The notes beneath the pieces were generated by a model that did not search any database, was not told the DNA's origin, and worked only from the letters and a program-made list of their open reading frames with translations. This document shows, in pieces, positions 16,880 through 50,794 of a stretch of 64,000 nt of DNA. A program made the position numbers and the translations under genes. The stretch's first letter is position 1. Every line of letters begins with the position of its first letter. Location of the stretch: contig NZ_OY782776.1 of assembly GCF_963678245.1 (NCBI RefSeq), positions 372,001 through 436,000 on the forward strand, given 5' to 3'. This DNA comes from an uncultured Sunxiuqinia sp. Its GTDB lineage: Bacteria; Bacteroidota; Bacteroidia; Bacteroidales; Prolixibacteraceae.

Positions 16880-16910
16880 ATCCGGGGGATGTTGCAACCA
16901 TCTTCCGGAT
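16880..16910 (-). promoter_or_regulatory. CCGG-framed two-step hairpin at FecR-SusC junction (PUL A)
   Basis: On the minus strand an outer stem ATCCGG/CCGGAT (6 bp) encloses an inner stem GATG/CATC (4 bp) with loop GTTGCAA. It starts 6 bp after the FecR stop codon and ends 49 bp before the SusC start. The same architecture recurs at the other two FecR-SusC junctions. There is no T run after it, so it is not a classic terminator; an RNA leader, processing or attenuation element is inferred. Confidence 0.55.
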
Positions 16911-16916
16911 TTTGTT

Positions 16917-18092
16917 TTAGTTCTTAAATACTATGGTTCCATTTTGATTTTCATATTTAACTTTAAAAATTGTTGCTAATCCTTCAATTACCCGTTCCGG
17001 CTCATCTTTTAAGTCGAGTTTCCCGGAGAATGACCCGGTTTTATTGGTTGTGAAAACAGCAATGTCAATGTTGTAATATCTTGATACCTTTTCAGCTAAA
17101 CTAGTAAGGTTCTCATTTTTAAAGATTAGGTAGCCATGTATCCAGGCAATCCTATTTTCGATGTCGTTGACTTCCTTGATATTGAAACTATTTTTGGTTT
17201 TTGACAGAACTGCAAACTCTTTCGGTTTAAGAATTTGTTCATTCGAAAATAACATGCTGTTCTTCGAGAGACTAACACTTCCTTCAACCAGCAAGGCGTT
17301 ATATTCATAGTTCTTTTTAAATGCCTGAACAGCAAATTTTGTCCCCAGTACTTTTACTTTAAACTCGTCAGTACGCACAACAAACGGTTTTGTTTTATCC
17401 TTAGACACTTCAAAGTATGCTTCCCCTACCAGGAACACTTCACGATTTTTTTTGTCGAATGCCGGAGGGTAAATCAATCTGGAGCCTGAATTTAAGTGAA
17501 CGATAGAGCCATCTGACAGATGAATTGACATTCTTTTTCCAAATGGAACATTTACCTGGTTGAAACTTTCACTTAATGTTGGTGTTTCTTGCTCCAGTTT
17601 AGCAGTGTCGTTAACTGATAGCTCCGTTCCATCTTCGGTGTATTCAATTTTTGCTTCTTTACTTTTTATTTCAACACGTTCTCCATCGGCGAGTATGAGC
17701 TCAGTATTTGACGACTGGACCTGACTGGTTGATGCAAAATTAACAATAGACGCCTTTTTGTTCATATATACCAGTGACACGGCAATTAAACCAATAGCCA
17801 ACATTGCAGCAACTGCATTTCTGAACCAAATAATTCTATGTTGTGTTCTATTTTGTTGAAGGATTCGGTTAAGCACCTTGTCTTTTCTCGTACTCGAAAT
17901 ATTAAATTTTGGAGACTGAATTTCTCTTACAACCGTGATAGCCAGCTGGATTTCTTGTTTCTTTTCAGGAAAATATTTCTGAAACTGCTCTAGGGTTATT
18001 CCATCTACAATTTCGCCTTTTGCCAACCTTATAAAGGATAGATCTAGAATTAATTCTTCTGTTTTGTATGATTTATATCGCTTTAAGTCCAT
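16917..18092 (-). CDS. FecR-family anti-sigma factor (PUL A)
   Basis: A 391-residue inner-membrane anti-sigma factor. The cytoplasmic N-terminal region binds the ECF sigma factor. One membrane segment lies at about 89-110 (VAAMLAIGLIAVSLVY). The periplasmic FecR domain holds FGKRMSIHLSDGSIVHLNSGSRLIYP and LVGEAYFEVSKDKTKPFVV. The C-terminal DUF4974-type domain (SLAEKVSRYYNIDI ... GKLDL) should contact the STN domain of the SusC encoded next. It lies between the sigma and SusC genes. Its overall pattern, including an acidic ILADGE-type linker, is closer to the FecR of PUL C than to that of PUL B. Confidence 0.95.
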   Translation of the reverse strand: MDLKRYKSYKTEELILDLSFIRLAKGEIVDGITLEQFQKYFPEKKQEIQLAITVVREIQSPKFNISSTRKDKVLNRILQQNRTQHRIIWFRNAVAAMLAIGLIAVSLVYMNKKASIVNFASTSQVQSSNTELILADGERVEIKSKEAKIEYTEDGTELSVNDTAKLEQETPTLSESFNQVNVPFGKRMSIHLSDGSIVHLNSGSRLIYPPAFDKKNREVFLVGEAYFEVSKDKTKPFVVRTDEFKVKVLGTKFAVQAFKKNYEYNALLVEGSVSLSKNSMLFSNEQILKPKEFAVLSKTKNSFNIKEVNDIENRIAWIHGYLIFKNENLTSLAEKVSRYYNIDIAVFTTNKTGSFSGKLDLKDEPERVIEGLATIFKVKYENQNGTIVFKN

Positions 18093-18253
18093 TTTCTTTT
18101 ATTTCAATATCAGCATACTAGGACTAATCAATTCTCTTGATTAATTTATATAACAAGAAGACCTTCATCCTAATTACTAAGAGAACGTGACAGACGAATT
18201 CGGACAAAAAAAATAGTTTTTTTTAAAAGTATAATTGATGAGAGGTAAAACGG

Positions 18254-18883
18254 TTAGCGCATACTGCTTTCGAGTTGAAATATGAACCAAAAAAAGAAAT
18301 CTTTATTTATACCTTTAGCTTTTACGACTTCTGATTTGATTAACTTTATCAACCGATAAATCGATTTGTAACATGCGTCAACATTTATTTCTAAAATGTC
18401 AGCTATTTCTTGGTAGCTCATTTCGCAATCAAAACGAAGGTGGATTAATTCCTGCTGTTTGGGTTTCAATTCACCCATACATTTTCTTAAAATAGCTTTT
18501 CTTTTATTTAACTCTTCGTTTTCAATAATGGTTTGCTCCGTGCTACTGAAATATTCTACTTGTGATTCAATAATTTGCTCTAGAGTAACCAAGCTTTTTT
18601 GTTTTTTTAAATCTTTTATCAATTGATTTCGGAAGGATTTCAGCAAATAGCTTTTCAAATTTTTCACAGGGGTGAGTTTCTTCCTGTTATTCAACAAATA
18701 GATAAATAAATTCTGAATGGAATCTTCTATGATCTGACTATCATTCGTGTATTTCATTCCAAAACGAAACATTATGTCGAAATACCCATAATAAATTTCA
18801 CAAAATGCATTTTTAGATCCATTTGTAATAAATAAATCCCAGCCTTCTGAATGATCTTTAATATTTGTGCTATCTATTGACAA
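18254..18883 (-). CDS. ECF (RpoE-like) RNA polymerase sigma factor (PUL A)
   Basis: A 209-residue ECF sigma factor. Region 2 contains AFCEIYYGYFDIMFRFGMKYT and the acidic helix IIEDSIQNLFIYLL; region 4 contains KQQELIHLRFDCEMSYQEIADILEINVDACYKSIYRLIKLI, a helix-turn-helix for -35 recognition. It should direct transcription of PUL A when released by the FecR encoded 161 bp downstream. The C-terminus has an extra aromatic tail (KDFFFWFIFQLESSMR). It resembles the sigma factor of PUL C more than its divergent neighbour in PUL B. Confidence 0.94.
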   Translation of the reverse strand: MSIDSTNIKDHSEGWDLFITNGSKNAFCEIYYGYFDIMFRFGMKYTNDSQIIEDSIQNLFIYLLNNRKKLTPVKNLKSYLLKSFRNQLIKDLKKQKSLVTLEQIIESQVEYFSSTEQTIIENEELNKRKAILRKCMGELKPKQQELIHLRFDCEMSYQEIADILEINVDACYKSIYRLIKLIKSEVVKAKGINKDFFFWFIFQLESSMR

Positions 18884-18904
18884 ATTCTGAAGTTTTTATA
18901 TTCA

Positions 18905-18954
18905 CAAAAATGCAGTTTTTTTACAACTTCAAAAAATGCAGTTTTTTTTACACA
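18905..18954. repeat. Tandem A-tract/TGCA repeat upstream of ECF sigma gene
   Basis: Two near-identical copies of a CAAAAA(A)TGCAGTTTTTTT(T)ACA motif lie about 26 bp apart, just upstream of the minus-strand ECF sigma gene and in the 289-bp gap between two divergent sigma genes. The spacing is about 2.5 helical turns. They could be a protein-binding site or an UP-like element; nothing proves it. Confidence 0.4.
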
Positions 18955-19172
18955 CAAAATTGCGAATAACCAAAGTTTATTTCGAAAGGAAATTACCAGC
19001 TTTTTTAGCAGAAGAAGTGGTTTTGTCAGTAATATATTGGCAACTAGTTTGAATTATTTCAATCTGATTATAAAAAATGGATTTGCTTAAACTCCTTTAT
19101 TTTGCTTATTTAGCCGTAGCCCATTGAGGGTAATACTTCTTAATGAGAAGTACTTAAAGCCATTGTTAATTC

Positions 19173-19769
19173 ATGTTCGAGGATAAGAGTGATTTGCTTA
19201 AGGGTTTGAAAAGTAAAGATTTGAAGGCCTATGAAATGATATTTTTTAAATATCATGGACGGCTGGTTATGTTTGCTAGTAAGTTTACCCACGATCTGGA
19301 AATTGCTCAGGATATCGTTCAGGACGCTTTTTTAACGCTATGGGAAAAAGCTGATTTGCTCACGATCAATGATTCTCCGAAGTCCTACCTGTTCCAGATG
19401 GTTAAAAACCGGGCTCTAAATCATAAAAGGCATGTAAGCGTGAAAAATTCGGCAAAGGACAAGTTGATTGCCGAAATGCAAGAATTGGAGAAAAGTGCAT
19501 ACATCAGTATGGAAAATCCATTGTACAGCCTGCTGGAATCTGAACTTGAAGAAAAAGTTGATCAGATTATTCAGAGTTTGCCTGATAAGTGTCAACAAGT
19601 TTTTGTAATGAGTAGAAAACAGCATCTAAAAAATAAAGAAATCGCGCTAGAGCTGGATATATCTGTAAAGATGGTCGAGAAACATATTTCTAAATCACTC
19701 AAAGTCCTTAGAACTGAACTAGCCGAGTATATAGGGGTTGTTCTATACTTCATTTTCAATAATTTATAA
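19173..19769 (+). CDS. ECF (RpoE-like) RNA polymerase sigma factor (PUL B)
   Basis: A 198-residue ECF sigma factor of the Bacteroidetes RpoE-like type. Region 2: AYEMIFFKYHGRLVMFASKFTHDLEIAQDIVQDAFLTLWEK. Region 4: LPDKCQQVFVMSRKQHLKNKEIALELDISVKMVEKHISKSLKVL. It is divergently transcribed from the PUL A sigma factor and precedes its own FecR by about 64 bp. It should drive PUL B when the SusC encoded downstream senses its ligand. Its sequence belongs to a different branch from the sigma factors of PULs A and C. Confidence 0.95.
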   Translation: MFEDKSDLLKGLKSKDLKAYEMIFFKYHGRLVMFASKFTHDLEIAQDIVQDAFLTLWEKADLLTINDSPKSYLFQMVKNRALNHKRHVSVKNSAKDKLIAEMQELEKSAYISMENPLYSLLESELEEKVDQIIQSLPDKCQQVFVMSRKQHLKNKEIALELDISVKMVEKHISKSLKVLRTELAEYIGVVLYFIFNNL

Positions 19770-19833
19770 AAAATATTTCCTAATGGTAGGGGATTTGGGT
19801 TGTGAGGTGTCATAGCTCTTGAAAACAAGTATT

Positions 19834-20832
19834 ATGAATTCGAAAAAGTCAATCAAGTCAAAAATTATCAGCTATCTTGATGGAGAATTGGAACAAGATG
19901 AGCTGAGGAAATTGCTGCAGTGGATTGGCAGCTCGGAAGAAAATACACGTTACTATGCGCGAGTTAAGGATTTGTGGGAAAGTTCCATCGGTCGTTATTC
20001 AGAGTTTGCCGAAACCGAAAAAGAATGGGAGAGATTTCAGCAGACAATTAAAGAAGACAGGGCGCAAAAAGTATACTTCAGGACTGTTGATTGGAGAGTA
20101 GTGTTGAGGATGGCTGCGGTTTTGGTTGTCGGAATTTTGTTGGGCAGTGTACTTCTCCAAGGTCCCCTCAAAAGTGGCGGAGCGTTAATCACGACTTCAG
20201 CTCCTATGGGGTCAATCTCGAAGACTCTGCTTAATGATAGTACCGTGGTTTTTCTAAATGCCGGATCTGAAATCCGTTACACTGTGGGTGGAGGTAAAGT
20301 CAGGGAGGTGTTCTTGCAAGGAGAAGCTTGGTTTAAGGTTAAACACATGGATCATAAGCCTTTTATTGTCCATACCGATTACTATGACGTTAAAGTTTTG
20401 GGGACTGAATTTAACGTGAAAGCATACGAAACCGAAAGCGAAGTCACTACTACATTGGAAAAGGGGGCGGTGCTGATTTCAGGGAATAAGCGACATGAAA
20501 TTGAAAAGGAGATCACCTTGAAACCAGGACAGCAATTAGTACTGAACCGGGAAAGTACATCATTCAAAATTAAAAAAGTGAATACTTCGCTATACACATC
20601 ATGGAAAGATCGTAAACTAGAATTTATAAAAATGCGTCTTGATGAATTAATTGTGTTGCTGGAAAGAAAATATGGTATTGAAATAGAGGTTGTAGATAAG
20701 GAAATCCTTAACTATCACTACAGCGGAACAATCAAAGATGAGACAATTTTTGAAATCCTTGAAATAATCGAACAAACACTTCCAGTTCATTACGAAATAA
20801 AGAATCAGAAGATAAAAATATACAAACAATAA
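19834..20832 (+). CDS. FecR-family anti-sigma factor (PUL B)
   Basis: A 332-residue anti-sigma factor from the ATG at 19834; a TTG at 19819 would add five residues and is less likely. The N-terminal cytoplasmic part (ISYLDGELEQDELRKLLQWI) is followed by a membrane segment at about 88-109 (AAVLVVGILLGSVLL). The periplasmic FecR domain has LNDSTVVFLNAGSEIRY, VFLQGEAWFKVKHMDHKPFIV and VLGTEFNVKAYE. A DUF4974-type C-terminus follows (LDELIVLLERKYGIEIEV ... YSGTIKDETIFEILEII). It holds the preceding sigma factor inactive until the STN domain of SusC signals. Confidence 0.95.
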   Translation: MNSKKSIKSKIISYLDGELEQDELRKLLQWIGSSEENTRYYARVKDLWESSIGRYSEFAETEKEWERFQQTIKEDRAQKVYFRTVDWRVVLRMAAVLVVGILLGSVLLQGPLKSGGALITTSAPMGSISKTLLNDSTVVFLNAGSEIRYTVGGGKVREVFLQGEAWFKVKHMDHKPFIVHTDYYDVKVLGTEFNVKAYETESEVTTTLEKGAVLISGNKRHEIEKEITLKPGQQLVLNRESTSFKIKKVNTSLYTSWKDRKLEFIKMRLDELIVLLERKYGIEIEVVDKEILNYHYSGTIKDETIFEILEIIEQTLPVHYEIKNQKIKIYKQ

Positions 20833-20877
20833 GGAAAGGAGGGATCAAAGAACAGGGTGTTAAACATAGAATCAAAA

Positions 20878-20906
20878 GCCGGCAAATGCTGTAACATTAT
20901 ACCGGC
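20878..20906 (+). promoter_or_regulatory. CCGG-framed two-step hairpin at FecR-SusC junction (PUL B)
   Basis: An outer stem GCCGG/CCGGC encloses an inner stem AATG/CATT with loop CTGTAA. It lies 45 bp after the FecR stop and 62 bp before the SusC start. A further small repeat ATGGTG/CACCAT (20924-20941) follows. The layout matches the hairpins at the same place in PULs A and C. Confidence 0.55.
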
Positions 20907-20968
20907 AGATGAATTTAAATAACATGGTGAGGTAACACCATATAAATAACTTAAAATCATTCAAATTT

Positions 20969-23900
20969 ATGAAAAAAAATGCAAATGCCAGCCGGCTTGG
21001 TGTTCGGGTATGGCAAAAACTATTATTGAAGATGAAACTAACAATGTTGATAATCTTGACCTGCTTGTTGCAGGTTTCAGCAACAGTTTACTCTCAATCA
21101 ACTGTATTTTCTTTTGATTTTGACAATAAAGAGGTTGTCAATGTTTTAAAAGAGATTGAAGGACAGAGTGACTTCCGTTTTTTCTATCAGAATGAGCAGA
21201 TTGATGTTCAGAGAAAAGTTAATATCAGTGTTTCAGGGAAAACCGTTGAAACTGTTCTTGATGAAATCTTTAAAGATCAAGGTATTACGTATAAAATATT
21301 TGAAAACAAGATGATTGTCTTGTCTCCGGATGGAGATTCAGACAACAATAAAAGTTCACAGCAAGGACCTGTAAGAGGTAAAGTAACTGGAGTGAATGGA
21401 GAACCGTTACCTGGGGTGACCGTTGTTGTTAACGGTACAACACAAGGTACTGTTACCGATTTTGATGGAGTATATAACCTAGCCAATATTCCTGCGGATG
21501 CGACCTTAATATTTTCTTTCGTAGGTATGAAAACCCAGAATATCAATGTCGGGGGTAAATCAGTGGTCGATGTAGTTCTGGAAGAAGACGCGATCGGTTT
21601 GGACGAAGTTGTGGCTATTGGTTATGGCATAACTAAAAAGAGCGATTTGACAGGGTCTGTTTCAGTTGTATCAGCTGAGAGTTTAGAGCGTAAACCGGTC
21701 ATTCGGGTTGAAGATGCTTTAAGCGGTCAGGCTTCCGGTGTTCAGGTTCAAAAGCCAAGTGGAGCTCCTGGTTCCGGAATGAAGATCAGAATTCGCGGTG
21801 CTAACTCAATTAATGGAAGTAACAGCCCATTGTATGTAATTGATGGATTTATTGGAGCAGACATTGTTTCGTTAAATCCAAGTGAAATTGAGTCTATCAA
21901 TATATTGAAAGATGCATCATCCACTGCAATATATGGTTCACGTGGTGCAAATGGTGTTGTCCTCATCACGACTAAATCGGCTAAAAAAGGCGATGCGAAA
22001 ATAGAGTTTGATGCTTTCTACAGTGTTGATCAAATTAGTAAAACCTATGATTTGCTTGGACCTGTTGAATACATGGAGACCGTAAACGCAAGACTTACTG
22101 CATTAGGACAAGGGACACAATTTACATCAAGTGACATTGCAGAGGTTGCTGCCAATGGTGGTACTGACTGGCAAAATGAGTTATTCAGAAACGGGGCTAC
22201 TCAAAATTATCAGTTATCATTTAATGGTGGAACAGAAAAAACTCAATATTATTTATCTGGTACAGTTGCTGACCAGAAAGGTATTGTTTTGAACTCCTTT
22301 TATAAAAGATATGGTTTACGGACGAACATTAATTCTCAGTTGAGAAATAATTTTGATCTGGCTTTTACCATGTATTCCACCTATGAAGAATATAGGAATA
22401 ATTACAATCATAATGGTAGGGGAAATGCTTCCGGAGCAGCTTTAATATTTTCGCCAAATGTTCCGATTTGGGATGATGCTCAGAACGATTACTCTCAATC
22501 ACCTTCTTATGGGCCTATTGCCAGTAACCCAATTTTTGCAGCCAAAGAAGTACTGCATGATAGCAGGCAATTTAAAACATTAGCAAACCTTCAGTTGAAT
22601 TATGAAATTATGACTGGATTGACCCTGTCGATAAGTGGTGGTGCAAAAGGGTATATCTTTAATAATCCTTTCTTAAAGACCGCCGGACCGGGAACTCCAA
22701 AATCAAATACAGAAGCCGGATACAATAACGGGTTTACATGGAATTTGCAGAATACGAATATGATTAACTACAGCAAAGTATTTGCTGATAAACACAGTTT
22801 GAATGTTTCTGCTATTCATGAGCAACAAATCAATATAGCAAGGGTAAACGGATCATGGGCCACTGGTTTTCCTACGATTTCGTTGGGATATAATAGTACA
22901 CAACTGGGAAGTACTGCAAAAGTTAGCTCGGGGTATGAAAACTGGTCAATTGAATCATTTCTTGGTCGATTGAATTATACCTATGATCAAAAGTATTTAT
23001 TCACGGCTACTTTTAGGGCTGATGGTTCCTCTAAATTTTATGGCAATAATAAATTTGGTTATTTCCCCTCTGGAGCTTTTGCCTGGAGACTGTCTGATGA
23101 GCCTTTCATACAGGAAATTTCAGCAATCCAAAATTTAAAATTCAGAGCCAGTTATGGTGTAACTGGTAGTCAGGCAATAAACCCATATAAAACATTGAGT
23201 TTATTGAATTTGGGACAGAACTATTCCTTTGATGGTTCAACCAACCAAACTATTGGAATTGGCCCTGGTGTCGCCGCAAATCCTGACTTAAAATGGGAGA
23301 CTACTGCACAAACAAATGTTGGATTTGATTTTGGGTTATTCAATGGAAAACTATCTGGTAATGTTGATTATTATTATAAAAAGACCACTGACCTACTTTT
23401 GGATGTGAATATTCCGGATTATAGTGGCGGTGGAAAAATTACGCAAAACGTAGGTTCTTTGGAGAACAAAGGTTTTGAATTTCTATTGTCTGGTGTTGTG
23501 GTTGATAAACCAAAGCTGAAACTGAACACAAGTTTTAACTTCAGTATGAATAGAAATAAAATCCTTGATTTGGGAGACGATGAAGAGATATTTACAGATG
23601 GTGGTTATACTGCAAATTCCTACGCGGCTCCTCCATTTATCCTTAAAGTTGGTGAACCTTTGGGACAATTTCGCGGATATCGTTTTGATGGACTTTGGCA
23701 AGAAAATGAAGCTGCTCAAGCTGCCGAATATGGCCTAGTTCCAGGTGATTCTAAGTATTGGGACAAAAACAACAATAAGAGCTATGATGGTGAGGATATG
23801 ACCAACATTGGTTCTGCACAACCTGATTTTATCTGGGGATGGAACACTTCACTTCAGTATGGGGACTTTGATTTGTCAATATACGTTAATGGAGTACAAG

Positions 23901-24322
23901 GTAATGATGTTTGGAACCAGACCCGTTGGTTAGTGATTGGTATGGGGACTGACGTTGAAAGTCCTACCTCTGTCGATATTTTGGATCGCTGGACTCCTGA
24001 CAATACTGATACAAATGTTGCCGGTTTTAGCGAGAGTAACACGACATATGCACAATCATCCTTGTTTGTTGAAGATGGAAGCTTTATTCGTTTGAATAAT
24101 GTGACACTAGGTTATACTTTTCCCAAAAGTGTTCTTTATAAAAAACTAAGCAATGCAAGGATATATGTAAGTGCACAAAACCTGTTTATGATTACCAATT
24201 ATTCTGGAATTGACCCTGAATTAACCTCTACTCCAACTTGGTCTGATACAGCTCAGGGGATTGATAATGGCACGTATCCATCAACACGGACATTTACTTT
24301 TGGTGTAAAGGTTGGTTTTTAA
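20969..24322 (+). CDS. SusC/RagA TonB-dependent transporter with STN signalling domain (PUL B)
   Basis: A 1117-residue transporter. The signal segment lies at about 19-40, STN domain at about 46-119, carboxypeptidase-D-like domain at about 134-206 (GKVTGVNGEPLPGVTVVV), TonB-box-like LDEVVAIGYG at 211-220, plug with YVIDGFIGADIVSLNPSEIESINILKDASSTAIYGSRGANG, and barrel ending FTFGVKVGF. It imports oligosaccharides across the outer membrane and reports through FecR. The SusD partner is encoded 24 bp downstream. The start context CAAATTT-ATG-AAAAAA is the same as in the other STN-type SusC genes. Confidence 0.96.
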   Translation: MKKNANASRLGVRVWQKLLLKMKLTMLIILTCLLQVSATVYSQSTVFSFDFDNKEVVNVLKEIEGQSDFRFFYQNEQIDVQRKVNISVSGKTVETVLDEIFKDQGITYKIFENKMIVLSPDGDSDNNKSSQQGPVRGKVTGVNGEPLPGVTVVVNGTTQGTVTDFDGVYNLANIPADATLIFSFVGMKTQNINVGGKSVVDVVLEEDAIGLDEVVAIGYGITKKSDLTGSVSVVSAESLERKPVIRVEDALSGQASGVQVQKPSGAPGSGMKIRIRGANSINGSNSPLYVIDGFIGADIVSLNPSEIESINILKDASSTAIYGSRGANGVVLITTKSAKKGDAKIEFDAFYSVDQISKTYDLLGPVEYMETVNARLTALGQGTQFTSSDIAEVAANGGTDWQNELFRNGATQNYQLSFNGGTEKTQYYLSGTVADQKGIVLNSFYKRYGLRTNINSQLRNNFDLAFTMYSTYEEYRNNYNHNGRGNASGAALIFSPNVPIWDDAQNDYSQSPSYGPIASNPIFAAKEVLHDSRQFKTLANLQLNYEIMTGLTLSISGGAKGYIFNNPFLKTAGPGTPKSNTEAGYNNGFTWNLQNTNMINYSKVFADKHSLNVSAIHEQQINIARVNGSWATGFPTISLGYNSTQLGSTAKVSSGYENWSIESFLGRLNYTYDQKYLFTATFRADGSSKFYGNNKFGYFPSGAFAWRLSDEPFIQEISAIQNLKFRASYGVTGSQAINPYKTLSLLNLGQNYSFDGSTNQTIGIGPGVAANPDLKWETTAQTNVGFDFGLFNGKLSGNVDYYYKKTTDLLLDVNIPDYSGGGKITQNVGSLENKGFEFLLSGVVVDKPKLKLNTSFNFSMNRNKILDLGDDEEIFTDGGYTANSYAAPPFILKVGEPLGQFRGYRFDGLWQENEAAQAAEYGLVPGDSKYWDKNNNKSYDGEDMTNIGSAQPDFIWGWNTSLQYGDFDLSIYVNGVQGNDVWNQTRWLVIGMGTDVESPTSVDILDRWTPDNTDTNVAGFSESNTTYAQSSLFVEDGSFIRLNNVTLGYTFPKSVLYKKLSNARIYVSAQNLFMITNYSGIDPELTSTPTWSDTAQGIDNGTYPSTRTFTFGVKVGF

Positions 24323-24346
24323 TTAGAATAAATGTTTAAATAAAAA

Positions 24347-25855: not shown

Positions 25856-25867
25856 TAATATGATTAC

Positions 25868-27276: not shown

Positions 27277-27349
27277 CTATGACTTTAGTGCTCATTTTAT
27301 CTCTTTCCAGAAGTAGGTATAAAATTTAAGAACTAAACTGATTGAAAAT

Positions 27350-40725: not shown

Positions 40726-40748
40726 ACTAACATACTAAAACCTATTCA

Positions 40749-42743: not shown

Positions 42744-42747
42744 TAGT

Positions 42748-44757
42748 ATGATTAAGCTAAAAACTAAAACAACCAAATTTTTGATTTTCTTTCTGACATT
42801 TGTGTTATCTGCAACTGTTGGAACATCATCTAACAATTTATATAGAAAAGATACCAATGGAGAATTTGTGACTTTCATATCTCCCTTTTATGCTATTGCT
42901 TTTGCCAAAGATTTTCCGATGATGGCATACTTCAATATTGAGTCTGGAGGCAGGAGCAGAAGGCTAATGGACAAATCGTTGCTCCGCTCCGGATTGGGAG
43001 GAACTGTTGTCAACAGAAACGAAGATTCATTTGGTGTTGAATGTGAAGTTGCGGTTGATGGCAATGAACTGAAATATTTAGGCATCCCTTTTTCGGCAGA
43101 TGAAAACCAATCGATGTCTGTTTCAGCAGTTGATGAGCGTAATTTTCAGATGCAATTTACAAACACAAATTTAATTGATGGCGAGTTTTTCAAAATAGCA
43201 ACAGCTCCCGATATTGCACCGGTTACCGTTTGGGCAACGGCTAGCAAAATTCGAGCATCCAATAAGTACGACCGGGAGGTTTCGTTTTATAATCCCAGAG
43301 TGCGGAAAGCGTCGTATGAGCTTCCGGCTATTTTACATTTTCCCGATTATGGGCTGGTGAAAGTGGAAACTGATAACGAGGAGGTCTTTCTACAAGAGCA
43401 TATTATTCCGGATTATTCCAATGTTGGGTTATCGCTTGGGCCATTCAACCGCGGGACACACCCGGGATTCCGGGCTTACCACAAAGGGACAGTAATGCTG
43501 TCGTTTCATTCAAAAAGCAAAATCACGCAAGCCGGATTAAAATTTACGGTCTTGGACGAGAACTATCCACGAATTGAAGGTTGTGATTTTACAGATTCCC
43601 GTTTTGATGGTTTGAAACGTTGCTGGCAGAATTCCTTTCCTGTGAAACCTGTCCAGCAGTGCATGGGCGATAATATCTTGCTGAACGGAATTGCTCATTT
43701 ATCAATGGGCTTCAAAGCTGATATGCTTGTTTTTACTCCCGATCTACCTTCAAAAGAAACCATGATTGTGGCTCTAGAACGAGCTTTGGAAGCAACTTTT
43801 GCTGAACGCGTTCAGGAAGATGGAAGAATTAAAGATTATGGATGGGAGAGCACGGAAGTAAGTTTGATTACACTTTACGATTATTTGCTTGTTTCCAACG
43901 ATTGGGAGTTTGTCGACAGGCATTTGACAAAAATAAAACGTGTTGTTCAATCTGTAGTCGATACAGATGTAGATCAGGATGGGATTTTTGAATCTCCTTT
44001 TCATGGTAATCGTTTTGAAGAGAACCGGAGCAGTTTAAACTGGTGGGATGATTTTGCATTTGGGCATAAAGATGCCTACGTCAATATAAAAGCTTATCGG
44101 GCATTGAAAGGTATGAAGAATGTCTTTTCGAAATTAGAGATGGCTGAAGATGTGGAAAACATTGAAAAACAGCTCGCCCTTTTTAGGTCGGCCTTTCATA
44201 AAACCTTTTATAATCCAGAGACAGGCGTATATGCCGGTTGGATAAGTGAAGACGGCAAGGTGCATGATTATCTATTCACATTCATTAACGGAATGGCAAT
44301 CAATCAGGGATTGGTTGAAGGTGAGCTGGCAAAAGACATCATGCATAGGCTTTTAACTCAGCTTGAGAAAGAAGGATACGATTTTGTGTATGGTGTTCCG
44401 GGACCGGCCATGGAGGTTGTCCACGAAGATCGTCAGAAGTGGGATGAAATGGCTCAATGGGGGCGGTACGAAAACGGGGGAATGTGTGGTCAAACAGCCT
44501 ATCATTTTATCCAGGCTTTATATAACGTTGGGATGCGTGAAAAGGCTAATGAAATCCTGTTTAAGATGATGGCAACTTTCGAAAAAGAACCAACTCATTC
44601 AGGCGTTTTTCCAGGCTATTTACAAAGCGTTGACTGGCGTACGAAAGGCGGTGCACCCACCGGATATAACTATTTGGCAGATAACTATTACTTTTTATTG
44701 GCAGCCGTTACCGGCTATTATGGAGTAAAATTTCCTGAATTAAAAAATGAAGAATAG
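42748..44757 (+). CDS. Six-hairpin (alpha/alpha)6 glycosidase-like protein, unassigned
   Basis: A 669-residue protein from ATG 42748, four bp after the previous stop; the in-frame TTG at 42730 would overlap and give no better signal peptide. The signal peptide covers about residues 1-24. The N-terminal 290 residues are beta-rich. The rest looks like an (alpha/alpha)6 barrel: DGRIKDYGWESTEVSLITLYDYLLVS, VDTDVDQDGIFESPFHGNRFEENRSSLNWWDDFAFGHKDAYVN, YAGWISEDGKVHDYLF and WGRYENGGMCGQTAYHFIQALY. Acidic residues in KDYGWES and NWWDDF are catalytic candidates. I recognise the six-hairpin superfamily (GH78, GH63, GH15 and similar) but no specific family. Confidence 0.65.
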   Translation: MIKLKTKTTKFLIFFLTFVLSATVGTSSNNLYRKDTNGEFVTFISPFYAIAFAKDFPMMAYFNIESGGRSRRLMDKSLLRSGLGGTVVNRNEDSFGVECEVAVDGNELKYLGIPFSADENQSMSVSAVDERNFQMQFTNTNLIDGEFFKIATAPDIAPVTVWATASKIRASNKYDREVSFYNPRVRKASYELPAILHFPDYGLVKVETDNEEVFLQEHIIPDYSNVGLSLGPFNRGTHPGFRAYHKGTVMLSFHSKSKITQAGLKFTVLDENYPRIEGCDFTDSRFDGLKRCWQNSFPVKPVQQCMGDNILLNGIAHLSMGFKADMLVFTPDLPSKETMIVALERALEATFAERVQEDGRIKDYGWESTEVSLITLYDYLLVSNDWEFVDRHLTKIKRVVQSVVDTDVDQDGIFESPFHGNRFEENRSSLNWWDDFAFGHKDAYVNIKAYRALKGMKNVFSKLEMAEDVENIEKQLALFRSAFHKTFYNPETGVYAGWISEDGKVHDYLFTFINGMAINQGLVEGELAKDIMHRLLTQLEKEGYDFVYGVPGPAMEVVHEDRQKWDEMAQWGRYENGGMCGQTAYHFIQALYNVGMREKANEILFKMMATFEKEPTHSGVFPGYLQSVDWRTKGGAPTGYNYLADNYYFLLAAVTGYYGVKFPELKNEE

Positions 44758-44760
44758 CGA

Positions 44761-45567
44761 ATGAATTTGACAAATACATCAGTTAGATATAAAACGAAGG
44801 GAGTTGTGTTTGTTTTTGATATCCTAATGATTATCTGTGCTCTTTTATTTCTTTCTATCGAATGTAATGACTATATAAATACCAAAGCAGATTCTGCTGA
44901 GATATCGTCACTCAAACCAACAATAGTATACAGTAACAACTCACTGGATTCAACATCGATTTTTAAGATAGACGGTTCAACGCGATTGCTATCAAGAAGT
45001 GATCGAGTTGGGATTCATGCTACAAGTGCACACTCACGATTTTCATATAACAAGCATTTGTTTAATTCTCAAAAAGGAATCTTTAGTGTCTGGTTAATGC
45101 CGTTGGGTGATTTGACTGCATTGGTGAATTATCCCGGAATGGCCCGTGATAACGAGTTCTACAATATATTTCCTGTTGTAACTGATCATGCTAATGTTTG
45201 TGATGTGTGGTCAGCAAATTTTAGCTTCTACATCAACAAGGTTTGGCATTCTGGTATAACTGCAAAGTTTGTTAAAGAAAACGGAAACGACAACTACAGT
45301 CATGCATCAGTTGCTGCCAATCATTCTGAATTTGAGAAGTATCATTGGTATCAGCTTATGCTTAGTTGGGATTTTCAGAAAAATGAAATGGTAATGTACA
45401 TCAAAGGAGTAAAGGTTGGTAGCCACGATACAACAGCAGAAAAGCTAAATGTAAGCTTTTTGAAACCGAACGATTTAGAAACGTTTTATGTGCAGGGATA
45501 TACGGTAGGACCAAAACTTACGGATGAAGGATTATTTGCAGAAACTTCGGAATTTGAAGGTGTATAA
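44761..45567 (+). CDS. LamG/concanavalin-like hypothetical protein, possibly truncated
   Basis: A 268-residue protein starting 3 bp after the previous stop. One hydrophobic segment (FDILMIICALLFLSIEC) could be a signal or anchor; the residues before the Cys (SIEC) do not make a good lipobox. The remainder looks like a jelly-roll of the LamG type: KHLFNSQKGIFSVWLMPLGDL, YHWYQLMLSWDFQKNEMVMYIKGVKVG. It ends abruptly after FEGV, and about 97 bp without a gene follow. In Bacteroidota such domains often front longer proteins, so this may be a truncated gene. No enzymatic function is visible. Confidence 0.6.
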   Translation: MNLTNTSVRYKTKGVVFVFDILMIICALLFLSIECNDYINTKADSAEISSLKPTIVYSNNSLDSTSIFKIDGSTRLLSRSDRVGIHATSAHSRFSYNKHLFNSQKGIFSVWLMPLGDLTALVNYPGMARDNEFYNIFPVVTDHANVCDVWSANFSFYINKVWHSGITAKFVKENGNDNYSHASVAANHSEFEKYHWYQLMLSWDFQKNEMVMYIKGVKVGSHDTTAEKLNVSFLKPNDLETFYVQGYTVGPKLTDEGLFAETSEFEGV

Positions 45568-45664
45568 CAGGAATATGAATTTTGAGATTTGGATGAGTGA
45601 TGCGAATTAATTGAAGATTTATAGATTCAAATCAGATCTCATGGATAATTAATACAGAATTAGA

Positions 45665-46543
45665 ATGAATAATATGAAGTGGATAATATTGGTTCTGTCA
45701 ATCTTTTTTTCTCTTGATACGATATTTGCAGCTCAAAAAGAAACGGATGAAATACATGTGCAGGAGGTTTATAAAACGATTGACACTCTTGAGCTAACCA
45801 TTGATATCTTTTATTCAAAAGAAACAATTACAGACCTCAATAATACGGCTATCGTATTTTTTCACGGAGGTGGATGGGCTTTTGGCACACCTGATAAGTT
45901 GTTCTCTGCCTGTGAAAGGTATGCGAAAATGGGAATAATTTGTTTTTGTGTTGACTATCGGTTGTCGAATGATAAAGGCACGGCTCCCCATAATAATATT
46001 ACTCCGATTGAATCACTAATGGATGTAAAATCAGCCATACGATGGGTCCGCAAAAATTCAGACAGGTTCAATATCAATCCTGAAAAAATTGTAGCTTCAG
46101 GACAATCGGCAGGAGGACACTTAGCAATATCAACTTCTATTATTGAGAAATATAACGAAAGCTCGGATGACTTTAGCATTAGCTGTGTCCCTAACGCCGT
46201 AATGAGTTTTTCAGGAACGGTTAATACTGTTGAAGCCTGGTGCGACCATTTATTGGGAAAAAGAAGAACAGAAATATGGAATATATCACCATTTCATAAT
46301 TTGAAAGGAGATTTACCTCCAATGATTCAGTTTCATGGAATGCAAGATGCCACCGTGCCTTTCTGGACTATTGAATTTTTCAAGCGAGAAACTGAAGCTT
46401 TGGGGAATTATTTTGAATTGCATAAATATCCCGGACGAAAACATTACTTAGGAAAAGGAAATCCCAAATACTCAGAATATTTTGATGATGAAATATTAGA
46501 GATTGCCGATGAATTTCTAAGAAATCAAGGGTTAATTAAATAA
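45665..46543 (+). CDS. Alpha/beta-hydrolase esterase (BD-FAE/HSL-like)
   Basis: A 292-residue secreted serine hydrolase (signal peptide to about residue 23, IFAAQ). It has the oxyanion-hole motif FFHGGGWAFG, nucleophile Ser148 in ASGQSAGGH, the probable acid Asp in HGMQDATVPF and catalytic His in GRKHYLG. This class includes acetyl- and feruloyl-type carbohydrate esterases. In context it probably removes acyl groups from the PUL B polysaccharide in the periplasm. A second Met (residue 4) is an alternative start. Confidence 0.87.
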   Translation: MNNMKWIILVLSIFFSLDTIFAAQKETDEIHVQEVYKTIDTLELTIDIFYSKETITDLNNTAIVFFHGGGWAFGTPDKLFSACERYAKMGIICFCVDYRLSNDKGTAPHNNITPIESLMDVKSAIRWVRKNSDRFNINPEKIVASGQSAGGHLAISTSIIEKYNESSDDFSISCVPNAVMSFSGTVNTVEAWCDHLLGKRRTEIWNISPFHNLKGDLPPMIQFHGMQDATVPFWTIEFFKRETEALGNYFELHKYPGRKHYLGKGNPKYSEYFDDEILEIADEFLRNQGLIK

Positions 46544-46631
46544 GTTAATTCCAGATGATAAGATTTCAGCAATAATTAATTACAAAAACTGAAAATGATT
46601 AACTTTTAAATTGAGAACTAATCTAATATCA

Positions 46632-47192
46632 ATGAAATATCTAATAATTGCCTTAGTGGCCATTATATTTTGCCTACCTGCTGGTGGTCAGGGTCTTAGT
46701 AAAAAAACGATCAGTAAAAACTATTATAAAATCATTGAAGGTTCCAATGAATCAAACAAATATAGAATTGAATTAAGTTCAGATATTGATACTAGCGGGG
46801 AAAAGTGGAATCAAAGGGCTTACAATTTTGGGTTCAACCCGCAACTCACGCCAATGTATACCATGGTTGATCGGATATTAGCCACTCCATATATGGTTCA
46901 GGTGCATGGAAATCAAAATGAAAAGAATAAAAAACGCTGGGGGCTCCATGTGTTTGAAGGATATGCAAAAGATGATAAATACAGAATTACCATGTTTGTA
47001 TATAAACATATTGTGTTGGGAGAACCCGTTGCGCAAATGTATTACTATGAAACTGTTTATAACCATTCCGAACCTGCCTACAAATGGTTTCGAATAGGTT
47101 CAGATGTTAAGCAACACTCCTTTTTATTTAGCAGGGATAAAGCGATGTTTTACGGTTCACTAACTCTTTCCAATGCCATAACCTTGGGATGA
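46632..47192 (+). CDS. Secreted protein of unknown function
   Basis: A 186-residue protein from ATG 46632 (a TTG lies 21 bp upstream) with a signal peptide ending near AGGQG. I do not recognise a family. The mature part looks beta-rich (YKIIEGSNESNKYRIELSSDIDT; RWGLHVFEGYAKDDKYRITMFVY; AYKWFRIGSDVKQHSFLFS). The region just after its stop contains a coding-like stretch in another frame broken by stop codons. This gene could therefore be the intact front of a decayed longer gene, or simply lie beside an unrelated remnant. Confidence 0.55.
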   Translation: MKYLIIALVAIIFCLPAGGQGLSKKTISKNYYKIIEGSNESNKYRIELSSDIDTSGEKWNQRAYNFGFNPQLTPMYTMVDRILATPYMVQVHGNQNEKNKKRWGLHVFEGYAKDDKYRITMFVYKHIVLGEPVAQMYYYETVYNHSEPAYKWFRIGSDVKQHSFLFSRDKAMFYGSLTLSNAITLG

Positions 47193-47221
47193 ATAGGCAA
47201 GGATAATGACGAAAAGATAAA

Positions 47222-47410
47222 CCAGAAGGCAATGATGAAGCAAACCATGCATAAGATGCTAAAAATGTGAATTGTAAATTGCTTAAAGACAGTGAAGACA
47301 GAACAATCTTCTGCGACTAAGACAACGACATTGTTGTTGTTAATATTAAAGGAAAATCGTGCAAACTGCTAACAGAAGCACTTCCTGAAGATATCAAATA
47401 CGATTTTTAG
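47222..47410 (+). pseudogene. Coding-like remnant with in-frame stops
   Basis: In one frame this stretch reads as plausible protein (KLLKDSEDRTIFCD, DNDIVVVNIKGKSCKLLTEA, LPEDIKYDF) but is broken by TAA at 47252 and 47318 and ends with TAG at 47408. Both TAA codons could derive from AAA by one change. No start codon or longer frame is available, so I read it as the decayed end of a lost gene. The family is unknown, and chance is a real alternative. Confidence 0.35.
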
Positions 47411-47431
47411 AATTAATAATTAAACGAAAAA

Positions 47432-48844
47432 ATGAAAATTTTAAACACCATTCTAAACCTAATTCTTGTTTTACTTTTATTTGTTTCATGCAAAGAAGAA
47501 AAACCAAATGTACTTTTTATTGCCGTTGATGACTTGAGACCCGAGTTATCTTGTTATGGACATGAAAAAATCATCTCCCCAAATATCGACAAACTCGCTT
47601 CCAATGGATTAATGTTTGTTAATGCATACTGCAATGTGCCGGTTTGTGGAGCATCCAGAGCGAGCTTGTTGACAGGAATGAGACCCACAGCTGATCGTTT
47701 TGTTGGGTACAATACTTGGGCCGAGAAAGATGCCCCGGGAGCTGTTAGTTTGCCTCAGGTATTCAAGAACAATGGCTATTATACCATTTCCAATGGAAAG
47801 GTATTTCATCATTTAAATGATATTCGCGAAAGCTGGTCAGAAGACCCGTGGAATCCTGCAGAAAACGGAGGTTCTTATTTAGATTATCAGGCGGACACAA
47901 ACCTTGCTATTCTAAATAGTGGTAGTAAAAGAGGCATGCCATATGAAGCAGGGGACGTTGATGATGATACCTATAATGATGGTGTCCTTGCGAAAAAGAC
48001 AATTAATGATTTAAAACGTCTGAAAGAGATGGGAAAACCATTCTTTTTAGCTGCTGGCTTTTTTAAACCACACCTTCCTTTTACGGCCCCCCAAAAATAT
48101 TGGGATCTCTATTCTTCAGACAAAATTTCATTACCTGATAATTATTCTCCTCCGGTGAATTCACCTAAAGCAGCTATTCATAATTTCGGTGAATTACGGA
48201 GTTATTATGGTGTACCTCCCGAGGGGCCCGTTTCTGATGAAATGGCTCACGATCTAATTCACGGATATTATGCCTGTGTTACTTATGTTGATGCGCAAAT
48301 TGGGCGGGTGCTTGACGCATTGGATGATATGGGACTTTCAGATAACACGATTGTGGTTTTATGGGGCGATCATGGCTGGCAACTGGGCGAGCATAGTTTA
48401 TGGTGCAAGCATGCAAACTTCAAAACTTCTCTGAATGCACCTTTAATCGTTAAAGCTCCTGGTTTTAAGGAGACTGGTCAAACCCAAGCACTCGTTGAGT
48501 TCATCGATATCTTTCCGTCTCTTTGCGATCTGGCTGATATCGAGTTGCCGCAACAACTTCATGGCAAAAGTTTCGTACCCTTACTAAATAATCCTCAGAA
48601 GCCATGGAAAGATGCCGTTTATAGTCGATATATATGGGGTGAATCAATTAAAAATCAACGTTATCTTTATACGGAATGGACAGACGAAAATGGAGTTATG
48701 CAGGGGCAGATGATCTATGATCACACAAATGATCCGGATGAAAACCAGAACATTATCTCCGACGTATCAATACGAGATACTGTTGAGGTGCTTAAAAGAA
48801 AACTACATCAAGCTATTGAGAGTAGAGAAAAATACTCAGATTAG
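47432..48844 (+). CDS. S1-type sulfatase lipoprotein (iduronate-2-sulfatase-like)
   Basis: A 470-residue lipoprotein (lipobox LFVSC, Cys20). The sulfatase start NVLFIAVDDLRPELSCYG gives metal ligands Asp33-Asp34. The formylglycine motif is C72-G-A-S-R76 (VCGASRASLLTG), so activation needs an anaerobic- or FGE-type maturase not encoded in this window. Further motifs are GKVFHH, FFKPHLPFTAPQKYWDLY and WGDHGWQLGEHSLWCKHANFKTSLNAPLIV, as in the iduronate-2-sulfatase-like branch. It is the last gene of PUL B and implies a sulfated target, possibly an acidic marine or host glycan. Confidence 0.92.
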   Translation: MKILNTILNLILVLLLFVSCKEEKPNVLFIAVDDLRPELSCYGHEKIISPNIDKLASNGLMFVNAYCNVPVCGASRASLLTGMRPTADRFVGYNTWAEKDAPGAVSLPQVFKNNGYYTISNGKVFHHLNDIRESWSEDPWNPAENGGSYLDYQADTNLAILNSGSKRGMPYEAGDVDDDTYNDGVLAKKTINDLKRLKEMGKPFFLAAGFFKPHLPFTAPQKYWDLYSSDKISLPDNYSPPVNSPKAAIHNFGELRSYYGVPPEGPVSDEMAHDLIHGYYACVTYVDAQIGRVLDALDDMGLSDNTIVVLWGDHGWQLGEHSLWCKHANFKTSLNAPLIVKAPGFKETGQTQALVEFIDIFPSLCDLADIELPQQLHGKSFVPLLNNPQKPWKDAVYSRYIWGESIKNQRYLYTEWTDENGVMQGQMIYDHTNDPDENQNIISDVSIRDTVEVLKRKLHQAIESREKYSD

Positions 48845-48900
48845 TAGCCTTGCTAATTGACAGGGAAATTGTTTGAGGGCTTAATTTTACACATTTATAA

Positions 48901-49500
48901 GTGAATAAGGGACTGAAAGATAGAGAATACTGGAAAGGGATATGGGAACTGTTTATTAACGGGAATAGACTCGCGTTCAATGAGATCTACAATGAATATG
49001 TAGACTTTCTTTTTGCCTATGGAATGAAGATTACTCCCAATCGGGAATTGGTTCAAGACAACATTCAGGATCTATTTGTAAATCTATGTAAATACCGCAA
49101 AAACCTGACTAGTCCAGACTATTTGGAATTTTATCTTACGCGCTCGCTCAGACGAATGTTAATCAAAGAAGTTCAGAAAAATAGAAAAGTTGCCAACATG
49201 GATGAAGAGGAGTTGTTAAGTTTCCAGCTGAAGTTTGATCTTGAAGAGCAACTGATTGAAGGTGAATCGGCAGATAACCGAATGATCTCATTACAAAAAA
49301 TGCTAGCAAGTATAGATTCCCGGAAAAGAGAACTCTTGTATTTGAAGTTTTACAGTGGACTTAATTATCGAGAAATAGGCGATTTACTTGGGATTAGACC
49401 CGATACCGCAAAAAAACAGGTTTATCGCTTGCTGGAGGATCTGAGAGATCGTTTTGGCCAAAAGCTGATGGAACTCTTCTGCATGTATTTTAAGGTGTAA
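48901..49500 (+). CDS. ECF (RpoE-like) RNA polymerase sigma factor (PUL C)
   Basis: A 199-residue ECF sigma factor starting at GTG; the first in-frame ATG lies inside region 2, so the GTG is required. Region 2: AFNEIYNEYVDFLFAYGMKIT and LVQDNIQDLFVNLCKYR. Region 4: RKRELLYLKFYSGLNYREIGDLLGIRPDTAKKQVYRLLEDL. It closely parallels the sigma factor of PUL A. It begins only 56 bp after the sulfatase, so its promoter must be short or it may be read through from PUL B. Confidence 0.94.
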   Translation: MNKGLKDREYWKGIWELFINGNRLAFNEIYNEYVDFLFAYGMKITPNRELVQDNIQDLFVNLCKYRKNLTSPDYLEFYLTRSLRRMLIKEVQKNRKVANMDEEELLSFQLKFDLEEQLIEGESADNRMISLQKMLASIDSRKRELLYLKFYSGLNYREIGDLLGIRPDTAKKQVYRLLEDLRDRFGQKLMELFCMYFKV

Positions 49501-49567
49501 TTTTTTTCTTTTTGTTGTCCCTTTTTTTCTGTTCTATACTCTTACTATTCAGTAATGCGTCGCAATT

Positions 49568-50764
49568 ATGGTTAAACAGAATCAAGATATAATCGATAAC
49601 CCATTGTTTTTTAGGTGGATATTTAATTCTGATGAATTGGTTGATACCTATTGGGCGAAATATATGATAGAAAGTCCAGATGATGTTGAATTTATTCAGG
49701 AGACAAAATTGAACTTATTGAAATTGAATCACTCAAACGAAATATTATCATCTGTAGAAAAGAAAACTCTTTCATCAAACATTATTCACTTATTGGAAAG
49801 AGAAGATAGGAAGCTTCGTAGTAGACGATTCATAAAAGAGTTGTCCAAATATGTGGCTGTTGCTATTTTGTTTTCAATGATTAGTGGTATTGCGGTGTAT
49901 TATCAGATGGATAAGGATACTCAAAATACCTTTGATCAGTTTGTTTACACACCGGTACAGGTGAATGAACCAACTTTGATCCTTTCTGAAAATGATAAAA
50001 TAGGGCTTGAGGAATCCGAATCTACACTGTCATATAGTGAACGCGGAGATATCTTGCTGAATGAGAATAAAGTGATCAAGTCAGCTCAAAGCAATAGTCA
50101 ACGAATTAATCAGCTCGTTATTCCCTATGGTAATCGTTCTAAAATAATACTGAGCGATGGAACTACAGTATGGCTAAATGCAGGAAGTCGCTTGATATAT
50201 CCTGAGGTATTTGGGGTGAAAAACAGAGAGGTTACTTTATATGGGGAAGCTTTTTTTGACGTGAGTCACAATGAAACAAAACCATTTATTGTTAAAACAA
50301 CAGATTTGAATATTCGTGTTTTGGGGACAAGGTTTAATGTTAATGCATACCCAGACGACTATACAATACAAACTACCCTGGAAGAAGGAAGTATATCTGT
50401 TAAAAAAAGAGAAGCCGGATTATTTGAGCGGGAATTGGTTTTGAAACCCAACCAACAATATGTGTTCAACCGTCAAACAGAAGCATCAAAAGTCAATCGG
50501 GTAGATGCTCAAAGCTATTTAATTTGGACTGAAGGTCTTTTGCGATTCAACGACGAACAGTTTAGCCGTATTGTGCGAAAAGTAGAACGTTACTATAACG
50601 TTCTAGTAAGTATTGACAGTCCTGTTCTGGCTCGTGAGAAGATAACCGGAAAACTTGATTTGTCGCAAGGTATAGATGAGACCCTTGAATATTTAAGTAG
50701 AGTATCACAAACAAACTATAAAAAAGAAAATGAAAGTAATTATCTAATATCTAACAAAAAATAA
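49568..50764 (+). CDS. FecR-family anti-sigma factor (PUL C)
   Basis: A 398-residue anti-sigma factor with a cytoplasmic N-terminal region of about 94 residues and a membrane segment at about 95-112 (VAVAILFSMISGIAVYY). The periplasmic FecR domain has PYGNRSKIILSDGTTVWLNAGSRLIYP and LYGEAFFDVSHNETKPFIVKT; the DUF4974-type end has FSRIVRKVERYYNVLVSI and GKLDLSQGIDETLEYL. It matches the FecR of PUL A in layout and motifs. Its stop codon overlaps the left arm of the CCGG hairpin at 50763. Confidence 0.95.
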   Translation: MVKQNQDIIDNPLFFRWIFNSDELVDTYWAKYMIESPDDVEFIQETKLNLLKLNHSNEILSSVEKKTLSSNIIHLLEREDRKLRSRRFIKELSKYVAVAILFSMISGIAVYYQMDKDTQNTFDQFVYTPVQVNEPTLILSENDKIGLEESESTLSYSERGDILLNENKVIKSAQSNSQRINQLVIPYGNRSKIILSDGTTVWLNAGSRLIYPEVFGVKNREVTLYGEAFFDVSHNETKPFIVKTTDLNIRVLGTRFNVNAYPDDYTIQTTLEEGSISVKKREAGLFERELVLKPNQQYVFNRQTEASKVNRVDAQSYLIWTEGLLRFNDEQFSRIVRKVERYYNVLVSIDSPVLAREKITGKLDLSQGIDETLEYLSRVSQTNYKKENESNYLISNKK

Positions 50765-50794
50765 ACCGACAAGTGGTGACGCACTAGCCGGTTT
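50763..50794 (+). promoter_or_regulatory. CCGG-framed two-step hairpin at FecR-SusC junction (PUL C)
   Basis: An outer stem AAACCG/CGGTTT encloses an inner stem AGTG/CACT with loop GTGACG. It overlaps the FecR stop codon and ends 54 bp before the SusC start. The layout and the TG-G/C-T-x-G-x-x-x-CA pattern around the loop match the hairpins in PULs A and B. Confidence 0.55.

Follow-up and report, generated by a model that had tools for sequence, protein, structure and literature searches.

What does a hairpin do in the gap between a fecR gene and the susC gene that follows it? The question is raised by a 64,000-nucleotide stretch of the genome of an uncultured Sunxiuqinia sp. (Prolixibacteraceae; contig NZ_OY782776.1, positions 372,001 to 436,000), hereafter the window, in which three cassettes coding for a sigma factor, a FecR anti-sigma factor and a SusC-like receptor each carry such a hairpin before susC. 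The original prediction read it as an element of the fecR-susC transcript that could set the SusC-to-FecR ratio by processing, attenuation or translation control. The analysis presented here leads to a different answer: each hairpin is very probably an intrinsic terminator, at which a short cis-antisense RNA of the DonS type would end; the evidence for it is that of sequence. The sequence supports the structure of the element, its strand, its terminator form, the promoter box that accompanies it, its position and its association with FecR-linked susC genes.

The hairpin and its strand

All three hairpins are present where the original prediction had placed them, 49, 62 and 53-54 nt from the susC ATG at junctions 1, 2 and 3, respectively. 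On the strand opposite to susC each is followed by a T-run, giving putative antisense intrinsic terminators at 16878-16918 (plus strand, opposite the minus-strand susC 1 at 13384-16830), 20869-20909 (minus strand, opposite susC 2 at 20969-24322) and 50756-50795 (minus strand, opposite susC 3 and overlapping the FecR stop codon). An antisense covariance model (R2), of which all three are seeds, scores the first at 43.7 bits on the plus strand versus 14.6 on the minus strand, the second at 32.4 bits on the minus strand with no plus-strand match at E<=5, and the third at 39.3 bits on the minus strand versus 17.3 on the plus strand. The “two-step” outline formerly ascribed to the element does not survive the change of strand, as it is mostly a product of sense-strand A.C mismatches: in the antisense fold, hairpin 1 is a single 13-bp stem, and hairpins 2 and 3 are single stems with one bulge or mismatch. 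A stock terminator scan reports the first of them, and between 16700 and 21100 its longest terminator-like stem is this one (16879-16911, plus strand, antisense to susC); the third window hairpin, whose stem is interrupted by a single T-T mismatch, is absent from its output and is reported by a generic scan. The bulged stem of the second junction is missed by the ungapped scans, two of which report the second hairpin of that junction (20922-20943, minus strand).

The three hairpins are not the whole set. The genome (4.87 Mb, 11 contigs) holds 39 FecR domains, at 32 of which a long SusC-like open reading frame (ORF) begins 79-300 nt past the FecR stop, and a strand-neutral finder, which treats G.U and A.C alike, gives a stem in 29 of these 32 FecR-SusC junctions. 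The other seven FecR loci (L002, L006, L021, L030, L036, L037, L039) were placed outside the junction set on the grounds of no long ORF after FecR, an overlapping or shorter next ORF, or a contig end. The best hairpin beats all 30 dinucleotide shuffles in 21 of the 32 junctions; taken singly, the third window hairpin does so, and the first and second (L009, L034) are equalled by 2 of 30 shuffles. As a set, the hairpins are not a product of chance.

The strand is indicated by the wobble pairs in an antisense alignment (A2) of 48 hairpins of the TG..CA class. A2 derives from 58 hairpins, from which six were dropped as chance matches or wrong sites (L012, L031, L077, L105, L117, L118) and four as near-copies of other rows (L049, L060, L063, L064), and in which the coordinates of L026 and L034 were replaced; an ungapped stem finder chose other hairpins at several junctions (e.g., L026, L034, L069), and the main hairpins are those used in A2. 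The alignment covers 19 of the 32 junctions of this genome, the 13 outside it being L001, L003, L004, L008, L010, L012, L013, L015, L017, L020, L027, L031 and L033. Of its 528 stem cells, 463 hold Watson-Crick pairs and 17 plain mismatches; G.U pairs on the antisense strand (hence A.C on the sense strand) make up the other 48, with no G.U pair on the sense strand, and 96.8% of the cells pair on the antisense strand. By sequence, 37 hairpins lean towards the antisense strand, none towards the sense strand and 11 are ties, with many rows being related, so that the p-value of a sign test is not to be taken literally. The rule by which rows were selected scored a sense G.U as a pair and a sense A.C as a mismatch; the selection bias therefore ran against the antisense strand, because the rule favoured sense G.U. 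The covariation of the stems claimed in the original prediction is borne out in the same alignment, with 116 double-change cells versus 31.0 in shuffles (0/500). Moreover, the strand-neutral recount over the 32 junctions gives 30 antisense-G.U cells versus 5 sense-G.U cells, and by junction 20 antisense, 3 sense and 6 ties, with no stem in the remaining three. Used as a strand test, this asymmetry sets right the understandable mistake of taking such hairpins for leader structures.

The flanks and the terminator scans agree with the wobble pairs. Around the 58 hairpins, on the sense strand, A occupies 5.6 of the 8 bases before the stem and 3.1 of the 8 after it, where T occupies 2.7 of 8; the A-rich run before the hairpin is thus a T-run after the hairpin on the antisense strand, where the intrinsic-terminator combination of a GC-rich hairpin and a T-run is found. 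A strand-blind scored terminator scan of the 32 junctions favours the antisense strand at 25 and the sense strand at 3 (L001, L028, L033), with 4 ties, and scores of at least 25 are reached on the antisense strand at 24 junctions and on the sense strand at 9. A generic terminator finder run on both strands of the window and of the loci of this genome returns 19 hits in the gaps of 18 junctions, 19/19 being antisense, and the FecR loci L021, L036 and L037, from outside the junction set, also have an antisense terminator. Together with the backward box described below, the wobble asymmetry, the T-run and the scans point to a function of the hairpin on the antisense strand. The earlier proposal of a regulatory leader is accordingly split: a structured, covarying element that is probably regulatory for SusC stands, and its assignment to a leader or attenuator on the sense strand is not supported.

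A backward -7 box at the susC start codon

Right at the start codon of the susC genes behind FecR, the sequence reads CAAA-NN-TA(TG), the reverse complement of which, TAnnTTTG, is the -7 box of Bacteroidota promoters and, together with TTTG at -33, makes up the sigma-ABfr promoter (PMC7366714). In the window, the candidate box TAAATTTG lies at 16830-16837 on the plus strand, at -7 of the ATG and overlapping the susC 1 start codon, at 20962-20969 on the minus strand, overlapping the susC 2 start codon, and at 50842-50849 on the minus strand, overlapping the susC 3 ATG. The last start is placed at ATG 50849 rather than at TTG 50837, the choice of the ORF finder, and both the context and the Sunxiuqinia indica relative L069 agree with this placement.

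CAAANNTA stands at exactly -7 in 24 of the 32 junctions and at -13, a shift of 6 bases, in three more; at L010, the box is in register with a second ATG a short way past the first. The string CAAANNTATGAAAAAA has 25 occurrences in the genome versus 1 for the reversed control, each of the 25 being situated downstream of a FecR domain, at a distance of 437-630 nt. Among 14 SusC starts without FecR, CAAANNTA is found at -7 in one. A wider survey of 88 junctions finds the box in 51 and no exact box near the assigned ATG in 37, where some ATGs look misassigned; in 39 of the 51, a purine (G in 30) stands 5 nt beyond the box on the antisense strand, the position expected for +1. The likeness to sigma-ABfr promoters thus lies in the exact -7 box with free middle bases, and the difference in the lack of a conserved -33 TTTG at these susC junctions. 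As a separate observation, the susC start L169, without FecR, reads CAAATTTATG, with the box at -7, yet has no hairpin match at E<0.2 with R1, a covariance model for the sense strand.

Predicted antisense RNAs and competing readings

Box, hairpin and T-run together delimit predicted antisense RNAs with approximate ends at 16842-16920 (plus strand; fold -27.0 kcal/mol, z -4.2), 20867-20957 (minus strand; -27.4 kcal/mol, z -5.95; containing the second hairpin at 20922-20943) and 50754-50837 (minus strand; -24.9 kcal/mol, z -4.6). Across the 34 of the 48 A2 rows in which both ends can be placed, likewise approximately, the predicted length is 73-112 nt, with a median of 86; 28 of the 34 fall within the 78-128 nt range of DonS-type RNAs and the other six measure 73-77 nt. 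A second hairpin with a terminator-like loop between terminator and susC start, as in window junction 2 (20922-20943, minus strand), is also seen at L026, L048 and L059. At L021 (L142) and L037 (L145), FecR is followed by the box and an antisense terminator with no long SusC ORF, possibly representing decayed loci that kept the antisense gene.

A working model can be drawn from this arrangement. The promoter with TAnnTTTG would overlie the susC start codon on the antisense strand and, as long as the sigma factor is idle, the housekeeping polymerase would initiate at this backward box. The RNA would start about 12 nt upstream of the susC ATG, run backwards through the leader for 73-112 nt and end in the fecR-susC gap, where the hairpin and T-run lie, before going far into fecR. 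The terminator would shield fecR and the sigma gene from antisense transcription, and its place in the gap would be accounted for in this way. The RNA would be fully complementary to the susC leader, pairing with it from about -12 to -100, the landing zone of the 30S subunit, while its promoter would overlap the susC ribosome-binding region, and head-on encounters between polymerases may add to the effect. We infer that the RNA is produced, that it represses and that it does so by leader pairing and/or opposed transcription, the most likely outcome being a lower SusC output of the sigma-FecR-SusC-SusD operon. Release of the sigma factor by FecR would then let transcription in the sense direction overwhelm the antisense start. 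A bolder extension, which we hold as doubtful, is that ribosome loading and antisense transcription are mutually exclusive, as the susC start codon and the antisense promoter share bases, and that about two dozen paralogous RNAs with related loops form one network silencing unused importers, partly in trans.

The readings that keep the hairpin on the sense strand are rejected on the strand evidence. It is very improbable that a leader hairpin in the fecR-susC mRNA sets the SusC-to-FecR ratio through processing, stability or translation: the occurrence at FecR-SusC junctions, the roughly fixed distance from the ATG and a sense strand that on average folds better than shuffles would suit such a leader, but the wobble asymmetry (48:0 in A2, 30:5 in the strand-neutral count) runs the other way, the A-run and T-run stand on the wrong sides, and the minimum free energy of the sense strand is worse in 32 of the 34 RNAs. 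The sense RNA of the first window junction has z -2.99 against shuffles, and the z-scores of the other two are weak (-1.34, -0.54). A sense intrinsic terminator or attenuator that ends the sigma-fecR transcript before susC has a smaller chance still and is close to dismissed. Several T follow the hairpin on the sense strand at a few junctions (L032, L010), but the mean is 2.7 T of 8, none of the 19 gap terminators of the generic scan is sense, the sense strand is the better one at 3 of 32 junctions, and such an attenuator would reduce SusC relative to FecR unless susC has its own promoter.

Two further readings accept an antisense-facing terminator and differ in what they add to it or take from it. 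In one of them, judged unlikely, the hairpin serves twice, ending the antisense RNA while its complement in the susC leader forms a docking (kissing-loop) or protein-binding structure. Many paralogues do share a loop pattern (sense C-N-G/C-N-A-A) within UG..CA closing pairs, some junctions have a second hairpin of similar loop (L026, L034), and among terminators found without a rule for it the TG-CA form occurs in 11 of 19 at junctions versus 1 of 8 others (three of these eight at FecR loci); however, the rows of A2 were chosen for TG..CA, so that invariance there is by construction, the sense fold in A2 gives no sign of selection for wobble pairs of its own, and terminator-like sites of other genes found with R2 have similar loops. 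The YUNR U-turn motif, looked for by eye in the antisense loop, was not seen. In the other, to which we assign a low probability, the CAAANNTATG box does no more than provide the context for translation initiation of these susC genes, and the hairpin, an antisense-facing terminator, has no connection with it. This reading would predict the placement seen in 24 of 32 junctions, at -7 of the ATG, and in principle the box could be a translation signal given its fixed distance from the ATG; against it, the two middle bases vary as in TAnnTTTG, the box is 6 nt off its usual place in three junctions, a single one of 14 other SusC starts has it at -7, and purines are over-represented at the position 5 nt past the box on the antisense strand.

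Several results also count against the antisense terminator and its promoter. Outside A2, where a stem is found in 10 of the 13 junctions, the wobble asymmetry is weaker (11:5 by cells, 6:3 by junctions); five junctions (L001, L012, L015, L020, L033) have an antisense score of 0 in the ungapped scan, and a clear T-run is absent from both strands at L028 and L029. Sense folds, too, are more stable than their shuffles (mean z -3.6, compared with -5.3 for the antisense strand), and at L029 and L035, the two exceptions among the 34, the sense fold is the better one. R1 scores most junctions higher on the sense strand, with L029, L032 and L035 higher on the antisense strand. Regarding the promoter, an exact box near the ATG is missing at 4 of the 32 junctions (L007, L012, L024, L033), TTTG is not conserved at -33 nor enriched upstream of the box in the 51 junctions that have it, and the box occurs at two SusC starts, L169 (at -7) and L162 (at -14), that have neither FecR nor an R1 hairpin at E<0.2.

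Three other candidates were considered. A DNA operator palindrome was rejected since both partners of the stem pairs vary and no half-site stays fixed, and a sense extracytoplasmic function (ECF) promoter in the gap, sought by eye, was dropped since the distance between hairpin and ATG is too variable. A mobile repeat of the REP (repetitive extragenic palindrome) kind was set aside since the stem sequences differ and the genome matches at E<=0.331 all lie at FecR loci (among the best 150 of 2738 candidates).

Distribution, related systems and neighbouring features

The association with FecR was followed with R1, seeded with 10 FecR-SusC junctions of the genome, which recovers 9 of 22 held-out junctions at E<0.01 (246 kb searched, either strand). 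Among the best 150 of 2738 candidates genome-wide, all 29 matches with E<=0.331 fall at FecR loci and correspond to 18 sites, matches on both strands of one site being counted once, of which 10 are the seeds; of four weaker matches, one is at a FecR locus. In relatives, R1 has a match at E<=0.01 in at least 17 of 21 genomes, this one included, among the matches listed, and 24 of the 27 loci of other genomes with the best matches have a FecR ending just upstream and a SusC starting just downstream; of the remaining three, L047 is cut by a contig end, and L054 and L055 have neither gene. The covariance-model search that the original prediction had proposed as its test thus came out in its favour, with matches at FecR-SusC junctions in this genome and its relatives. 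The junction before the SusC-like gene 8799-11606, which had been offered as an internal control, proved unmatched, as it is preceded by a SusD gene and is no FecR-SusC junction. SusC starts without FecR (15 loci fetched, 14 with a usable start) were taken as the control instead: R1 gives nothing at E<0.2 there, and the strand-blind terminator scan gives no score of 25 or more on either strand at the 14 starts. The STN-less protein 8799-11606 itself begins 26 nt after the SusD gene, with Plug as the sole domain reported.

Within this genus and family the element is common, and beyond them it is patchy. With the FecR family as a hairpin-independent probe (E<=1e-8), FecR is present in 26 of the 41 genomes at order level and in 10 of the 40 at class level, this genome being included in both; many of the sampled FecR genes adjoin or overlap the next gene, and R1 matches at E<0.01 in 5 of 54 sampled FecR loci of other genomes, a point that also weighs against the antisense reading. 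A class-level search with R2 covered 198 genomes, 38 of which have a match at E<=0.001. It returns mostly terminator-like sites of other genes, 19 of 24 fetched non-FecR loci following the end of a same-strand ORF (a count without a shuffled baseline), while 5 of 29 loci of other genomes are FecR-SusC gaps, all antisense. R2 is thus not FecR-specific at class level, as it resembles terminators in general; in this genome, among its best 150 candidates, it has one match at E<0.01 away from FecR, which looks like a plain terminator between converging genes. Since the genome-wide searches scored the best 150 (R1, and R2 in this genome) or the best 33 (R2 at class level) candidates per genome, an absence weighs little there.

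DonS-type RNAs are cis-antisense RNAs of Bacteroides polysaccharide utilization loci (PULs), a sigma/anti-sigma pair with SusC/SusD being the defining locus type of the family. Their original description is reportedly that of Cao et al. in 2016. They measure 78-128 nt, are encoded divergently to susC homologues and have a negative effect on them (PMC7366714). DonS represses its PUL in B. fragilis by a mechanism described as unknown (PMC11697453), and Pudlo 2015 is cited for a repressing intergenic region (PMC5635687). The annotation of B. thetaiotaomicron lists 32 PUL antisense RNAs, some of which correlate negatively with their operon and others positively (PMC10994844), the latter being a further caution for the repression proposed here. 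The likeness of the susC-junction elements to this type lies in a predicted RNA opposite the 5' region of susC that points away from it, with a backward box and a backward terminator, and in the predicted length (73-112 nt versus 78-128 nt); they differ in occurring in a Prolixibacteraceae genome and its relatives and in being predicted from the letters of the genome. With Bacteroidota intrinsic terminators the hairpins share the GC-rich stem, the short loop and the T-run, R2 also retrieving terminators at ordinary gene ends; in contrast to these, they lie within an operon, point against its direction and are accompanied by an antisense promoter box. The FopS and GibS small RNAs of B. thetaiotaomicron are comparable in being small, in their terminator hairpin and in the context of PUL regulation (PMC11697453, PMC7366714), but FopS RNAs are mostly intergenic (9 of 14; PMC11697453), whereas those of the susC junctions would be cis-encoded.

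Rfam has no match in the window at the gathering threshold, and at E<=1 the sole match in eight junction loci is RF02839, with 27.9 bits versus a cut-off of 92. In the excerpts of the literature searched, mostly without subscription papers, no description was found of a start-codon-fused antisense promoter or of a covarying terminator family of this kind. The susC-junction elements are therefore best regarded as candidate additional RNAs of the DonS kind, of predicted transcription and with a usable sequence signature: a TAnnTTTG fused to the start codon, combined with a backward terminator that covaries and mostly lies 40-90 nt before the ATG. PUL antisense RNAs have so far been found by RNA work in Bacteroides, and such a signature would allow their prediction from genomes alone; moreover, it associates these RNAs with FecR-linked SusC and offers point mutations by which the roles of promoter, terminator and leader pairing could be told apart.

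All three window loci have domains of a sigma factor, FecR and SusC, in keeping with the DonS locus type, and SusD follows at the first two, the loci at which it was looked for. The first cassette, on the minus strand, comprises a sigma factor (18254-18883; Sigma70 regions 2 and 4), FecR (16917-18092; PF04773, PF16344) and the SusC-like TonB-dependent receptor susC 1 (13384-16830; PF13715, PF07715, PF00593; STN match under its cut-off). The second, on the plus strand, comprises an ECF sigma factor (19173-19769; PF04542, PF08281, PF07638), FecR (19819-20832; PF04773, PF16344) and a SusC-like receptor, susC 2, with an STN domain in the domain search (20969-24322). The third, also on the plus strand, comprises a sigma factor identified by domain search (48901-49500), FecR (49568-50764; PF04773, PF16344), with an 88% identical relative in Sunxiuqinia indica (Prolixibacteraceae), and the SusC-like receptor susC 3 (50849-54277 with the moved start; STN match under its cut-off).

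Lastly, a sense-strand motif, GCC(T/A)ATG, lies just after or across the FecR stop at L026, L027, L008, L025, L038, L066, L105 and others, in 18 of 88 junctions versus 0.85 in mononucleotide shuffles. It is mostly followed by a stop within a few codons (ATG-TAA, ATG-AAG-TAA) and may represent a start-stop mini-ORF; at L001, L004 and L061, a form of the motif is the end of FecR itself (...PM*, ...PMK*).

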